Assembly (NCBI RefSeq): GCF_004005375.1 | Contig: NZ_RZUF01000019.1 | Span: 45,599 to 104,270 of the forward strand | Reading direction: 5' to 3' | Source of the DNA: Rheinheimera sediminis | GTDB taxonomy: Bacteria > Pseudomonadota > Gammaproteobacteria > Enterobacterales > Alteromonadaceae | DNA: 58,672 bases | In this document: piece by piece, positions 38,303 through 54,151 of the stretch | Position numbering within the stretch: the first letter of the stretch is position 1 | How the letters are laid out: each line of letters starts with the position of its first letter | Notes under the pieces: model-generated | The model's input: the letters and a program-made list of their open reading frames with translations, nothing else | Told to the model about the DNA's origin: nothing | The model's database searches: none | Position numbers and translations under genes: made by a program

Positions 38303-38324
38303 ACCGCCGAAAGGCGGTTTTTTT
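38303..38324 (+). terminator. Terminator of fadR
   Basis: Stem ACCGCC/GGCGGT with a GAAA tetraloop and TTTTTT tract, 7 bp after the fadR stop. Confidence 0.93.
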
Positions 38325-38481: not shown

Positions 38482-38542
38482 TTGTCACAGCTGTTGGGGC
38501 TGGTTATTATATTGCCATATATAATATAACCTTTAGTTATAT
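38482..38542 (+). promoter_or_regulatory. Desulfurase-fusion promoter with two overlapping AT-rich palindromes
   Basis: TTGTCA (38482-38487), 17-nt spacer, TATTAT (38505-38510). Downstream are two inverted repeats: ATTATAT-TGCCAT-ATATAAT (38506-38525) and ATATAAC-CTTTA-GTTATAT (38524-38542). A perfect TATAAT also occurs at 38520-38525. The palindromes cover the -10 and the region to just before the start codon, as repressor operators do. The regulator is not identified; an ArsR-type (BigR-like) repressor is a guess from the persulfide function. Confidence 0.55.
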
Positions 38543-38552
38543 GGGGCGAACC

Positions 38553-40799
38553 ATGCAAAAGCCTGTTACCCGGCCACAAGAAATTTATCTGGATAATAAT
38601 GCAACGACTCCTGTACTGGCTTGCGCTGCGGCTGCGGTGCAACATACGATGCAGCAGTGTTTTGGCAATCCAAGCAGTAGCCACAGTACTGGTATTAAAG
38701 CCAAAGTCGAGCTAGAAAGCACCAGGCAACTGGCACGCCAGCTGATTGGAGCCGGTTCCGGCGAGATCGTCTTTACCTCTGGAGCTACCGAAGGTATTCA
38801 AAGTTCTATTTTCTCTGCCTTGTTGCATGCCCGCATGTCGGGAAAAACAGGGCCTGCTTACAGCTTGCTGTACGGTGCCACAGAACACAAAGCTGTACCT
38901 CAAAGTCTTGAACACTGGAATCATGTATTGCAGCTTGGGGCGACTATTAAAGCTATTCCTGTCGATCAACATGGCCTTTTGAGTTTTGATTTTATCCAAC
39001 AAGAATTGCCCAATACTCTACTGATTTGCACTATGGCCGCTAATAATGAGACAGGTGTAAAGCAGGACTTGACCGCGTTACAGCAGCTTATCCGTAGTAT
39101 TGCCCCGCACGTGTTATGGATGGTGGACTGTGTGCAGGCGCTTGGAAAAATGCCCTTACAGCTGGAACAAATGACCATAGACTACGCGCCTTTTAGTGGT
39201 CATAAACTCTATGCCCCTAAAGGTATTGGCTTTTTGTATGTTCGTAAAGGAACGCCTTATCAGCCGCTCTTAGCTGGAGGCGGGCAGGAGAGTGGTTTAC
39301 GTTCTGGTACTGAAAACTTGCCAGGTATTGCAGCATTGCAGGCGATATTTCAGCAGTTGAAATTAAAAGAGGGCTCGGTTTTTCAGCCAGATCAGCAGTT
39401 GTGGAGCTATCGTGATCAACTGTTGTCTGCGTTGCGTCAGGTCTTTCCTGATTTAGTTCTGAATAGCGACCAACCTTATATAGTGCCTACCACTATCAAC
39501 TTCTCTGTACCAGGTTTTGCCAGCAAAGATATTATGGATTTATTTGATGCCGCGGGCATTCGAGTCAGTTCAGGTTCTGCTTGTAGCTCCAAAATTCCGA
39601 CCAGTTTTGTACTCAATGCGATGGGTTTACCACTCTGGCGTAGTCAGGGGGCTATTAGGCTATCCTTTGGTCCTGCGATGACGCCACAGGAATGTCAGCA
39701 AGCATGTAGCGCTATTCTGGCATTAAAAGCCGTGGTGAATTCCTGTTGTTTAGTATTAAGTGATGCCAGTAGCACAGAACTTCAGCCTTTAGCAGGCTTA
39801 GTGCAGTTAAAACACGAAGATTTATGCAGCTATTTGCTGGTGTCAGCAGAGACCTCAGAAGTTATTATCATCGATGCCGTGTTGCCACTGGCTAGCCGCA
39901 TTGCACTTTTAGTGCAGGGGCATCAGTTAAAAGTAAGGGCTATTCTTGATACGCATCAACATAAAGATCACCCTTCAGCACGGCCTGAGCTGGTCACTTT
40001 GTTAGTGGATTTACTGCACTCTGCAAATACCAACAGCCTTGGCTGGCCTTTAGACGAAACCAGCCTGAAAATGGGGCCTTATCAGTTGAACGCTGTGGCT
40101 ACTCCTGGTCATAGTCCTGAAGCTGTGACTATTTTGGTACGGCAGCATCAGCAACAAAAATTTGCTTTTGTTGGTGATTTTATTCTGCCGGGAGGCACTG
40201 GACGGCTGGACTTACCGGGTGGAGACAGTCAGGCGTTTCGCCAGAGTTTACGAGCTTTGGAGCTGCAACTAGAGGCTCAAACCTTATTGGTCTCCAGCCA
40301 TGACTATGCTCAGCGGTTTTTCACCCGTTGGGATCTGATGCTGCAAGAGCAACCTGTATTGCAACAGATCCTCAGAACCGAAGATACGCCTGAGCAGTGG
40401 CTAAGTGAATTGCAGCGTCAAAACGACTGGCTGCAACAGCAATCAGGGCATTTTTGTGGCGTGGTCGAGGTTTGTGCATCTGATGCCACTGCTGTGATTG
40501 ATAAACATCAGATCGCAGCGTTAATACAGCAGTATCCTGATTTGCAAATATGGGATGTGCGTGAACCTCACGAGCAGGCTGCTGGCGCTTTGTCAGTGTA
40601 CTTGCCTGACTTGGTTTCTAAAGACGTTCCTTTGTCTTCATTAGTGCAACGGGTCGCTGAGCACCATACAAAAACACCAGGACCAGTGCTACTAGTATGT
40701 CGTTCTGGTAATCGTAGTTTATTAGCTGCAAAAGTGTTGAACAGAGCTGGGTTTGAACTCGTGTTTAATTTAAAAGGTGGGGTAGCGCTTTTAGCCTGA
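38553..40799 (+). CDS. Cysteine desulfurase / ETHE1-like persulfide dioxygenase / rhodanese fusion
   Basis: A 748-residue three-domain enzyme. Residues about 9-395 are an IscS/NifS-type cysteine desulfurase: PLP-stacking His112 (TEHKAV), PLP lysine Lys218 (SGHK), catalytic Cys344 (SSGSACSS). Residues about 400-640 are a metallo-beta-lactamase fold of ETHE1 type: HxHxDH at 468-473, His520, Asp542 followed by the GTGRLDLPGGD signature, and His583. Residues about 650-748 are a rhodanese with Cys716 in CRSGNRS. All active residues are present. Likely chemistry: sulfur is taken from cysteine as persulfide, oxidised to sulfite or transferred (inference). The start ATG at 38553 lies just after the operator palindromes; a more upstream start would run through repeat B. 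Confidence 0.88.
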   Translation: MQKPVTRPQEIYLDNNATTPVLACAAAAVQHTMQQCFGNPSSSHSTGIKAKVELESTRQLARQLIGAGSGEIVFTSGATEGIQSSIFSALLHARMSGKTGPAYSLLYGATEHKAVPQSLEHWNHVLQLGATIKAIPVDQHGLLSFDFIQQELPNTLLICTMAANNETGVKQDLTALQQLIRSIAPHVLWMVDCVQALGKMPLQLEQMTIDYAPFSGHKLYAPKGIGFLYVRKGTPYQPLLAGGGQESGLRSGTENLPGIAALQAIFQQLKLKEGSVFQPDQQLWSYRDQLLSALRQVFPDLVLNSDQPYIVPTTINFSVPGFASKDIMDLFDAAGIRVSSGSACSSKIPTSFVLNAMGLPLWRSQGAIRLSFGPAMTPQECQQACSAILALKAVVNSCCLVLSDASSTELQPLAGLVQLKHEDLCSYLLVSAETSEVIIIDAVLPLASRIALLVQGHQLKVRAILDTHQHKDHPSARPELVTLLVDLLHSANTNSLGWPLDETSLKMGPYQLNAVATPGHSPEAVTILVRQHQQQKFAFVGDFILPGGTGRLDLPGGDSQAFRQSLRALELQLEAQTLLVSSHDYAQRFFTRWDLMLQEQPVLQQILRTEDTPEQWLSELQRQNDWLQQQSGHFCGVVEVCASDATAVIDKHQIAALIQQYPDLQIWDVREPHEQAAGALSVYLPDLVSKDVPLSSLVQRVAEHHTKTPGPVLLVCRSGNRSLLAAKVLNRAGFELVFNLKGGVALLA

Positions 40800-40869: not shown

Positions 40870-41538
40870 TTAGTAAAACAGATGCTGTAGTGGGTTTAAC
40901 AAGCGTGTTAAGCCTTTTTTAAACTTCAGCGGTGCAGTTAATACCGACAGACACAAACAATCTTCACTCATAGTTCGTGGGGTATGTGTGTGGTCCGCTG
41001 TGTTAATTAATAAATCACCTTCACCATAGCAACCTGATTCGTCGTAGATTTTCCCTTTCAGTACTAAAGTTATCTCTACGCCTAAATGAGTGTGTTGTGG
41101 CACTTCACTGTCTTTGCGAATATATAGCAGAGATACGTTATGTTGGTCTTCACCTGCCAGTTTAGCTGTGCTGATACCGCCGAGATTTAGCCATTTCAGC
41201 TTGTCCTTTAGCAGTGGTCTTAGCGAAGCCGGCACTAATATTTCGCTATTTTGGATCTGCACAGCAAAAGGTTGTCTTTGTTTTTGCTGGGCTGCAGCTT
41301 CTGGTTGGGCTGTGATGAAGTCAAGCATTTGTTGCCAATCAGTTTCTGTGCTCTGAGCCTGTGGCAGAGCCGCTAACGCCACACCTGCCTCAGCTTCCAA
41401 ATCCATTTTGATGCGCTGGCAATGTGGACAGAGGTCGAGGTGAGCAGCAATAGCTACGCTTAATTCGGGCGCAAGGCTGGCTTCTATATACTGCTCGAGT
41501 AACTCTACCGATGGGTGATATTTAACTGCGTGGATCAT
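40870..41538 (-). CDS. ChrR-type zinc-binding cupin anti-sigma factor
   Basis: A 222-residue anti-sigma factor of the ChrR family. The N-terminal zinc anti-sigma domain holds His33-x3-Cys37-x2-Cys40. The C-terminal cupin (about 130-205) keeps its metal ligands His148, His150, Glu154 and His184. ChrR holds its sigma factor inactive until singlet oxygen or organic hydroperoxide acts, in Rhodobacter. The ATG at 41538 has AGAGG 6 nt upstream. It overlaps the sigma gene by 17 bp, the usual sigma/anti-sigma coupling. It converges on the desulfurase fusion. Confidence 0.88.
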   Translation of the reverse strand: MIHAVKYHPSVELLEQYIEASLAPELSVAIAAHLDLCPHCQRIKMDLEAEAGVALAALPQAQSTETDWQQMLDFITAQPEAAAQQKQRQPFAVQIQNSEILVPASLRPLLKDKLKWLNLGGISTAKLAGEDQHNVSLLYIRKDSEVPQHTHLGVEITLVLKGKIYDESGCYGEGDLLINTADHTHTPRTMSEDCLCLSVLTAPLKFKKGLTRLLNPLQHLFY

Positions 41539-42172
41539 CAATAGCCTCTCTTAATCTATCAAGCGCAAGGCGAATACGAGACTTGACTGTTCCAAGCGGA
41601 ATCGACAGTTCATCCGATACTTCCTGATGCGATTTTTCTTCTAAATAAACTTTTTCCATAACGTCACGCTGAGCTGGGGGCAGTTTAGCAAAGTGAGGCG
41701 CAACTTTTTCTGCCAATAACCACAGATCCCATTCGTTGCTGTCGGTGCCTTCTTGCTCAGGATAATCGCCATCGAAAAATAAATCGTCTGCTGACAGCTC
41801 ATCTTTCCTGCTTTGCTTTTTGCGAAGCATATCAAATCGCACGTTCCGGGCTATAGTAAAGATCCAGGTTGAAGCACAGCCGCGACTGGCATCGAATAGC
41901 CTGGCTTTTTGCCACACGTTCAGCATGGTGTCCTGCACCATCTCCATCGCCTGTTGCTCGTTACCAAACATCTTCAGGCCGAAAGCTTTCAAACGTGGCG
42001 CAAAATAACTGAACAATTGTGAATAGGCTTGTTTATCGCGGTCCACCGCTATAAAAGTTAAAGCTTGTTCCCACTGCGTATTGTCTTGTGGTTGAACTGA
42101 CATAGATCCTTGAATACTGAGCCTCTGGTAATTACCATCATCATGCCTTTGAACTGATGTTGAATCCAACAT
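41522..42172 (-). CDS. ECF sigma factor (ECF11/RpoE-ChrR type)
   Basis: A 216-residue extracytoplasmic-function sigma factor. Region 2 (about 45-110) includes FGNEQQAMEMVQDTMLNVWQ and TWIFTIARNVRFDMLR; region 4 (about 160-210) contains LPPAQRDVMEKVYLEEKSHQEVS and a helix-turn-helix with LGTVKSRIRLAL. Co-encoded ChrR indicates control by singlet oxygen or peroxide stress (established for the family). The ATG at 42172 may be the start; an internal ATG at 42103 with AAGGA upstream is a good alternative giving 193 residues. A candidate self-regulated promoter lies 40-65 bp upstream. Confidence 0.88.
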   Translation of the reverse strand: MLDSTSVQRHDDGNYQRLSIQGSMSVQPQDNTQWEQALTFIAVDRDKQAYSQLFSYFAPRLKAFGLKMFGNEQQAMEMVQDTMLNVWQKARLFDASRGCASTWIFTIARNVRFDMLRKKQSRKDELSADDLFFDGDYPEQEGTDSNEWDLWLLAEKVAPHFAKLPPAQRDVMEKVYLEEKSHQEVSDELSIPLGTVKSRIRLALDRLREAIDDPRS

Positions 42173-53179: not shown

Positions 53180-54151
53180 TTAGGCTTGTAATTCGCTTTC
53201 GGTAAAGAAGTCTGCAAACAGCGCACTGGATAAATAACGCTCTGTTGAGCTTGGGATAATGACCACAATATTTTTACCAGCGTTTTCTGGCAGCTCAGCC
53301 AGGCGCTTGGCGGCAACGACGGCTGCTCCTGAAGAAATACCAGCCAGAATACCTTCTTCTTTCATCAGACGGTGTGCCATAGCTATGGCTTCGTCATTAC
53401 TGACCGTTTCTACCGCATCAATAATAGATAAATCCAGGTTACCCGGAATAAAACCAGCGCCTATGCCCTGAATTTTGTGTGGACCTGGTTTTATTTCCTG
53501 ACCCGCGCGAGCCTGGCTTATCACAGGAGAATCTACAGGTTCTACGGCCACACTGATCAGCGGGTGTTTTTTCTCATGCTTAATGTAACGGCTTACACCT
53601 GTGATAGTACCGCCTGTGCCTACACCTGCTACGAAGATATCGATGTTGCCATCTGTATCATTCCAAATCTCAGGACCTGTAGTGTCAAAGTGAATTTGTG
53701 GGTTGGCCGGGTTTTCAAACTGCTGCAGCAATACATATTTATCCGGCTCGGATGCCAGAATTTCTTTGGCTTTTTCGATAGCGCCTTTCATGCCTTTTGC
53801 GCCTTCGGTCAGCACTAAATTGGCACCTAAAGCTTTGAGCAGTTTACGGCGCTCTAAACTCATAGTGGCTGGCATGGTCAGAGTTAATGCATAGCCGCGG
53901 CTTGCCGCAACAAAAGCCAAAGCAATACCTGTGTTACCAGAAGTAGGTTCGATAATTTCTTTACCTGGGCCTAACAGACCTTTTTTCTCTGCATCCCAAA
54001 TCAAAGCTGCACCTAAGCGGCATTTCACGGAGAAGCTTGGGTTACGGGATTCGATTTTGGCAAATACATTGGCACCAGATGTGACGCGCTTTAAACGCAC
54101 CAGAGGGGTATTACCAATAGAGAGTGAGTTATCTTCGTAGATCTTTGACAT
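53180..54151 (-). CDS. cysK: Cysteine synthase A
   Basis: A 323-residue PLP enzyme making cysteine from O-acetylserine and sulfide. The PLP lysine Lys43 is in [14 protein letters not shown], matching E. coli CysK exactly at that site. [10 protein letters not shown], the substrate loop, and [13 protein letters not shown], the phosphate loop, are present. AAGG precedes the ATG at about 9 nt. It is divergent from the second MoxR gene. Its product is the substrate of the cysteine desulfurase domain encoded at 38.6 kb. Confidence 0.95.

Follow-up and report, generated by a model that had tools for sequence, protein, structure and literature searches.

The window analyzed here is a 58,672-nt stretch of Rheinheimera sediminis DNA (contig NZ_RZUF01000019.1), and the gene under study lies at positions 38553 to 40799 on its plus strand. 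It encodes a 748-aa protein in which a NifS/IscS-type cysteine desulfurase, an ETHE1-like (Type I) persulfide dioxygenase (PDO) and a rhodanese follow one another on a single chain. We propose, with about equal chances of being right or wrong, that the protein is a cysteine-regulon enzyme, which would take sulfur from cysteine as persulfide and oxidize it to sulfite or pass it on. Rhodaneses fused to a desulfurase, or to a PDO, are already on record as two-domain proteins; here all three domains are found in one conserved gene. The gene, its domains and its upstream elements are as follows.

38553..40799, plus strand, three-domain fusion gene, 748 aa (open reading frame, Pfam domains and relatives)
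38577..39752, plus strand, cysteine desulfurase domain, residues 9-400, with pyridoxal phosphate (PLP) Lys218 and persulfide Cys344 (Pfam Aminotran_5; profile)
39774..40490, plus strand, ETHE1-like Type I PDO domain, residues 408-646, with triad H468/H520/D542 and C635-G636 (profile matches)
40488..40796, plus strand, rhodanese domain, residues 646-748, with the CRSGNRS loop carrying Cys716 (Pfam; profile)
38482..38510, plus strand, predicted promoter TTGTCA-N17-TATTAT (promoter prediction; hexamer statistics)
38516..38544, plus strand, 29-bp box, probably of CysB type, in operator position (weight matrix; over the predicted transcription start)
38543..38548, plus strand, GGGGCG, possible ribosome-binding site (by eye; it ends 4 nt before ATG 38553)

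The initial annotation had described this chain from the letters alone, and the description stands. Pfam placed all three domains above the curated cut-offs (Aminotran_5 at residues 11-382, E 3.5e-60; Lactamase_B, E 2.9e-08; Rhodanese at residues 656-744, E 1e-07, 32.8 bits vs. a cut-off of 22.2), and K218, C344, H468xHxD472H473, H520, D542, GTGRLDLPGGD and C716 are all at the positions that had been given. The longest alternative open reading frame (ORF) begins at ATG 38391 (802 aa). The start at ATG 38553, as annotated, is the better one because ATG 38391 would place the predicted promoter and the box within the gene and because GGGGCG precedes ATG 38553. No named desulfurase equivalog of NCBIfam reached its cut-off among the best 25 of 35 models (NifS, the top one, 278.9 vs. 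530.75 bits; DndA 222.8 vs. 480; IscS 208.9 vs. 643.2), and the Blh (sulfurtransferase/dioxygenase) model gave 47.6 bits against a cut-off of 625.

The same architecture was found in other genomes. The fusion gene is present in 22/22 genomes of the genus (G000-G021) and is full length without internal stop in 19 of them; the remaining three copies are cut by contig ends (split across two contig ends in G007, without the gene end in G018 and 84 residues only in G020). In the order, 43/394 genomes and 13/114 genera gave a match at E <= 1e-70, and two of these matches (G031 and G776) have an eroded middle domain. In a set spread over the class the only match (1/369) was the genome of the window itself. 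A family profile run across the phylum matched 10/398 at E <= 1e-85, nine of them within the order and one (G1033) in another order of the class, the latter with an eroded middle domain. A scan of a named collection gave at least 570 relatives, many of them presumably plain desulfurases, of which the best 80 were kept as loci. The kept loci, from a group of water-dwelling bacteria, span Rheinheimera, Alishewanella, Arsukibacterium, Alkalimonas, Shewanella, Parashewanella, Pseudoalteromonas, Thalassotalea, Thalassomonas and Colwellia, and the nearest named relatives among them are from Rheinheimera soli (95%) and Rheinheimera sp. 1928-s (94%). Each of 81 loci (80 named plus the window) has one family ORF (81 members, mean 754 aa), the copies in L070 and L092 being cut by contig ends. 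A sequencing fusion of two neighboring genes, which the initial annotation had raised against itself, and an assembly artifact are both ruled out by the single stop-free frame in 19/22 genus genomes and the one ORF in each of the 81 loci.

For active-site counts, 143 loci gave 122 distinct proteins and, with the query, 123 rows; the 122 rows of at least 560 aa were counted (the contig-cut L016 was left out, and the query's own locus duplicates the query). The first-domain profile matched 1ecx best among solved structures (E 2.2e-78), which we take to be a NifS-like protein of T. maritima, and then other desulfurases. H112, D192, Q195, K218, C344 and R369 are each present in 122/122 rows. By these residues the first domain is a class I (NifS/IscS-type) cysteine desulfurase, the equivalence to IscS being taken from the alignment. 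The equivalent IscS residues presumably serve as the PLP lysine, the active-site His, Asp and Gln and the persulfide cysteine of the mobile loop. The third domain, which carries the six-residue CxxGxR loop within a rhodanese fold, is a rhodanese by the same kind of evidence. Its profile matched rhodaneses including 6mxv and the BpPRF rhodanese, and C716, R717 and R721 are found in 121/122 rows, the sole gap being the contig-cut L021. Close to the desulfurase-PDO joint, Cys399 (45/48 rows) and Cys425 (48/48 rows) are conserved and could be relay points.

The middle-domain profile matched 4ysb (1e-35), 8zbd (5.9e-32), 2gcu (1.8e-31), human ETHE1 4chl (8.8e-31) and BpPRF (1e-29), and glyoxalase II (1qh3) at 1.2e-18; by profile, the domain resembles Type I PDOs more closely than glyoxalase II. 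The iron triad H468, H520 and D542 is found in 119/122 rows, each residue and all three jointly. Counts for the other PDO residues in the 122 rows are 120 for H470, H583 and C635, 119 for G636, 118 for Y585, 107 for R551 and 64 for D553, with T467, D441, H583, Y585 and C635 falling between 116 and 120. The T-H-x-H-x-D-H motif is complete in the window copy; D472 is present in 89/122 rows, H473 in 83/122 and both in 83/122. Ten residues (H468, H470, D472, H473, H520, D542, R551, H583, Y585 and C635) occur jointly in 82/122 rows, the window copy included. C635-G636 aligns with the CG of 8zbd, the sole alignment extending so far among the matches listed. A second close PDO was not seen in the same genome, where the only match was weak (30.9 bits at C43:10290).

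The available excerpts of a study on the A. caldus PDO (AcPDO; PMC6060420) list eleven residues as important in that enzyme, and the window copy matches them all by alignment (T56, H57, H59, D61, H62, H113, D130, R139, D141, H171 and Y173). It also has a counterpart of AcPDO C224 (C247 in human ETHE1), named in these excerpts as the only cysteine strictly kept across Type I enzymes. The D-H pair of the motif does not bind iron in PDOs, and AcPDO variants D61A and H62A are inactive, according to the same excerpts. Glutathione, they report, is held by R139 and Y173 in all PDO types and by R190 and K212 with P211 in Type I. The AcPDO R190 position, equated with residue 602 by counting on from the HDY motif in structure alignments, is L in 39, V in 6, A in 2 and E in 1 of 48 rows. 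The P-K pair is absent from the 40 residues preceding C635 in 120/120 rows having C635; a lysine at column 620, found in 21/48 rows and not in the window copy, might replace K212. The Type I contacts R190 and P211-K212 were thus not found in the family, and R551 and Y585 are kept. This suggests that the thiol carrier of the PDO has changed, and a plain candidate for its substrate would be a protein persulfide, C344 and C716 being fixed on the same chain. The changed glutathione contacts together with the two fixed cysteines fit a persulfide delivered inside the protein. Judged by its residues, the window copy has most of the features known to be required in a PDO; AcPDO C87 has no equivalent in it, and the two Type I glutathione contacts are missing. 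The PDO looks intact in the window copy and decayed in some relatives, with the desulfurase and the rhodanese as the fixed core.

By eye, the upstream DNA of the fusion gene is unlike between genera apart from one box. A 29-position weight matrix scored above 15 bits in 78 of the 81 upstream regions; the other three are L113 (11.0), L132 and L103, the last with its match beginning at base 51 of the contig. Since these 81 loci had also served to fit the matrix, a cross-clade test was added. The matrix of the other genera scored above the 99th percentile of shuffles in 48/48 Rheinheimera-clade loci, and the clade matrix did so in 26/33 others. A -10-like TANNNT ends 0-9 nt before the box in 75/78 loci (20.4 expected). 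The predicted promoter ends at 38510 and the box begins at 38516, so the box would lie over the predicted transcription start.

The box was compared with cys promoters by means of a 19-bp core, whose weights were learned from fusion-gene promoters only and whose limits were set after a first look at the cys promoters. The 300 bases preceding cysK (13 loci), cysD (14) and cysJ (13) in 13 genomes were scanned with it, using 40 shuffles, as were two sets of control loci, one of 17 (cysM-like and related) and one of 13 (flavodoxin-like); L181, L253 and L263-L265 were fetched and left out. The best core site was above all 40 shuffles in 9/13 cysJ, 4/13 cysK and 4/14 cysD regions and in 1/17 and 0/13 controls. 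Scored against their own shuffles, cysJ regions gave p 9.8e-6 and 8.2e-6 and cysK regions p 0.0019 and 1.4e-4. The full 29-mer beat all of 20 shuffles in 6/13 cysK, 3/13 cysJ and 2/14 cysD regions and in 3/17 and 0/13 controls. When the 29-mer and each of the eleven possible 19-bp cores were compared with the pooled controls, p-values uncorrected for composition were 1.1e-5 to 0.0016 for cysK, 1.3e-7 to 0.013 for cysJ and 0.097 to 0.66 for cysD. The enrichment at cysJ and cysK is independent of the chosen core. Relative to the coding match, the best cysJ and cysK sites are at -98 to -179, and they occur in either orientation, unlike the fusion-gene box. In the R. sediminis genome the cysJ site is TTATACCTTTTAGTTATTA, vs. 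ATATAACCTTTAGTTATAT at the fusion gene; it scores 18.2 bits and 0/40 shuffles were as high. In E. coli K-12, used as a positive control with regions between divergent genes counted once, as cys, six intergenic cys regions outranked 19 others (p 0.0015), led by cysZ and cysB. One cys gene lies in the window itself.

about 53216-54151, minus strand, cysK

Upstream of this gene, GGAATATCTTATATC looks similar by eye to the left half of the box at the fusion gene; the core score is weak there.

At the promoters that it activates, CysB binds upstream; at cysB, which it represses, it binds over the start, according to the available part of a report (PMC11329422). By position, the fusion-gene box is like the cysB site and not like the cysJ sites. 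N-acetylserine relieves CysB repression at cysB. We conclude that the box is probably of CysB type and positioned as a repressor site would be; the sequence that it would share with the CysB regulon is enriched before cysJ and cysK and not clearly before cysD.

It is unlikely that the box is instead the site of another regulator local to the fusion gene, an explanation of control only and compatible with any of the functions discussed below. It would account for the exact box pattern having a single match in the R. sediminis genome, at the fusion gene, and for nine of 11 exact matches in 21 genomes being at the fusion gene, with one of the other two (G015, L150) having no cys gene alongside by eye. 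With one mismatch allowed, there were 51 matches in total vs. 31 for a reversed control pattern, so these are mostly chance. The pattern is stricter than the matrix, because five of the 21 gene-bearing genomes (G004, G486, G049, G491 and G438) gave no match within one mismatch. A purely local site is harder to reconcile with the recurrence of the core at a consistent distance upstream of cysJ and cysK, seen also with the 29-mer and all 11 cores, with the ranking of the E. coli cys regions, and with the remaining exact match (G034, L157), 99 bp before a cobA-like (siroheme) gene named by eye.

In the mechanism that we propose, the PLP domain would take sulfur from L-cysteine, with alanine as the other product, and carry it as a persulfide on Cys344. 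This sulfane sulfur would move via the rhodanese Cys716, or directly, to the mononuclear-iron PDO domain, which with O2 would convert it to sulfite; alternatively, the rhodanese would give the sulfur to another acceptor. Little sulfide would be released, excess cysteine or persulfide would be drained, and the gene would be read alone under a CysB-type site over the transcription start. Each activity, the channeling, the order of sulfur transfer, the sulfite product, CysB as the binder and repression are predictions from sequence. A narrower version is put forward only tentatively: the PDO would use a protein-cysteine persulfide of its own chain and not a small thiol, and the enzyme would form a closed short cut from cysteine to sulfite, turned by CysB opposite to cysteine synthesis, as an overflow valve that frees no sulfide. 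The three domains in one conserved gene point to the desulfurase as the direct sulfur source for the PDO. The fusion makes testable the use of protein-bound persulfide by a PDO, the limitation of cysteine in these bacteria, and CysB control of a route out of cysteine besides the route in.

Several findings weigh against the proposed enzyme. Mean identity is 67% for the desulfurase, 45% for the rhodanese and 41% for the PDO, which is the least conserved of the three domains. The iron triad is absent in 3/122 rows, namely L026 (G031), L277 (G1033) and L287 (G776), all of which keep K218, C344 and C716. The first of these genes is placed as follows.

L026, 850-2643, minus strand, PDO-eroded relative

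D472 and/or H473 are missing in 39/122 rows, these three included. The initial annotation had suggested a role in cysteine degradation or persulfide control. That role gains from the probable CysB-type box and the changed glutathione-contact surface; its oxidation step cannot hold for every member because of these 39 rows. AcPDO C87 has no counterpart in the window copy, in which no cysteine occurs between residues 425 and 635; C87 is essential in AcPDO, and human ETHE1 is without it too, as stated in the excerpts of PMC6060420. On the side of control, cysD shows no clear core signal in its 14 loci (raw p 0.52 and 0.26; shuffle-corrected 0.22 and 0.025). The raw core scores (p 4.6e-6 and 8.2e-6 for cysJ, 1.4e-4 and 1.6e-4 for cysK) overstate the enrichment, the cysJ and cysK upstream regions having 37-38% GC vs. 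43-45% in the controls. In the R. sediminis genome the cysK site is weak (4.9; 12.5% of shuffles as high) and cysD has none (-4.5). Of the E. coli K-12 cys regions, those of cysZ and cysB alone scored above all 40 of their shuffles, and those of cysJ, cysP, cysD and cysK (low) did not.

Much of the evidence on the PDO also bears on a simpler function, which we regard as doubtful: the protein may be a desulfurase-rhodanese persulfide donor that sends its sulfur to acceptor proteins or small thiols, with the PDO serving as a spacer or side valve or being an enzyme in decay. The model for this is CD-Rhd, a natural fusion from Pseudorhodoferax sp. Leaf274, in which sulfur from cysteine is passed in vitro by the desulfurase to the catalytic cysteine of the rhodanese, as described in the available parts of two reports (PMC8931425, PMC12319549). 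Like the fusion protein, CD-Rhd is a desulfurase with a C-terminal rhodanese domain; its catalytic cysteines in these parts (C334/C466, C446 in places) are 132 residues apart vs. 372 here, where a PDO domain of about 230 residues lies between the two, and no dioxygenase is described there for CD-Rhd. A donor role fits the fast evolution of the PDO and the retention of the desulfurase and rhodanese cysteines in the three PDO-eroded relatives. It also fits a desulfurase-domain tree of 32 rows, in which keeping or losing D472-H473 takes four changes on the best tree (3-5 over bootstraps), though only one is forced by well-supported branches and the long L026 and L277 are of unsure placement. A dead domain would hardly explain the triad in 119/122 rows or T467, D441, H583, Y585 and C635 in 116-120.

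Thiosulfate or sulfane-sulfur assimilation appears improbable. In such a route the rhodanese would take sulfur from thiosulfate, the PDO would make sulfite for CysJI and the desulfurase would be a second input. The PDO-rhodanese order is that of BpPRF (PDB 5ve3-5ve5), which bears out the earlier remark that dioxygenase-rhodanese fusions are known. The title of the BpPRF paper reportedly proposes a role in sulfur assimilation. The genome has cysK, cysD and cysJ, and a CysB-type box would suit the same role. Against this, the box lies downstream of the -10-like hexamer, vs. -98 to -179 for the cysJ and cysK sites, so co-activation with these genes is unlikely, and the desulfurase, the supposed second input, is the most constrained domain. 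BpPRF differs also in having no desulfurase and in having glutathione contacts at the AcPDO R190 and K212 positions (PMC6060420, in excerpt), which are not kept in the fusion protein. Least probable of all is a housekeeping desulfurase acting as a backup for Fe-S or tRNA sulfur supply. The NifS/IscS-type fold and cysteine loop would allow it, and the failure of every NCBIfam model noted above to reach its cut-off argues against it. The initial annotation had held that no isc/suf genes are adjacent; none was found among the neighbors read within the window, the gene stands alone, and separate desulfurase-like genes are on other contigs (C13:218666 and C1:13851).

The proposed cysteine-to-sulfite enzyme can also be set beside other PDOs. 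Human ETHE1, M. xanthus PDO and Arabidopsis PDO (4chl, 4ysb and 2gcu) share with the window copy the His-His-Asp triad, T-H-x-H-x-D-H, R163/Y197 and C247-G (human ETHE1 numbers); they are stand-alone proteins with the Type I glutathione contacts and no fused sulfur donor. In the available parts of the sources, CstB of S. aureus (Type III; PMC6060420) and Blh of the bigR operon (PMC5823870) likewise have a PDO joined to sulfurtransferase domains. No description of the three-domain protein was found in the literature searched by titles and abstract openings, a weak negative given the partial coverage. To our knowledge, neither CstB nor Blh has a desulfurase. By word search, fusion, fused and dioxygenase are absent from a review of bacterial cysteine desulfurases (PMC8300815).

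The surroundings of the fusion gene in the window contain the following features.

38303..38318, plus strand, terminator-like hairpin and T-run after fadR
40870-41541, minus strand, ChrR-type anti-sigma factor gene, convergent, directly downstream
41522-42172, minus strand, extracytoplasmic function (ECF) sigma factor gene, convergent, downstream

With the terminator-like hairpin upstream, the fusion gene probably forms a transcription unit by itself. The order fadR, fusion gene and ChrR-ECF pair is kept in most Rheinheimera, Alishewanella, Arsukibacterium and Alkalimonas loci; Shewanella, Pseudoalteromonas and Thalassotalea have different neighbors. Among the 81 loci no neighbor is widely common outside the Rheinheimera-type clade, so the function was not read from gene context. 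ChrR-type pairs answer oxidative signals, and control of the fusion gene by the adjacent pair is possible in the Rheinheimera-type clade; against it, the pair is confined to that clade and a sigma70-like -10 precedes the box. In several Shewanella a different gene is directly upstream of the fusion gene, for example in L114.

L114, 8140-8706, plus strand, DSP-PTPase-like protein gene, product probably secreted

A DUF442/Blh identity for this neighbor was dropped because Pfam gives DSP-PTPase-like families.

No relative of the fusion protein was found in viral contigs. In a plasmid collection, three records carry the fusion gene, all from Pseudoalteromonas (NZ_CP045419.1, NZ_CP074588.1 and NZ_CP022523.1; 0.8-1.3 Mb). 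One of the three copies is annotated only as 'aminotransferase class V-fold PLP-dependent enzyme', and for the remaining two no gene is listed; the combined function is not visible in these records because the labels are partial or absent. Some Pseudoalteromonas copies group with those of Shewanella/Colwellia in the tree, which together with the plasmid location hints at transfer.

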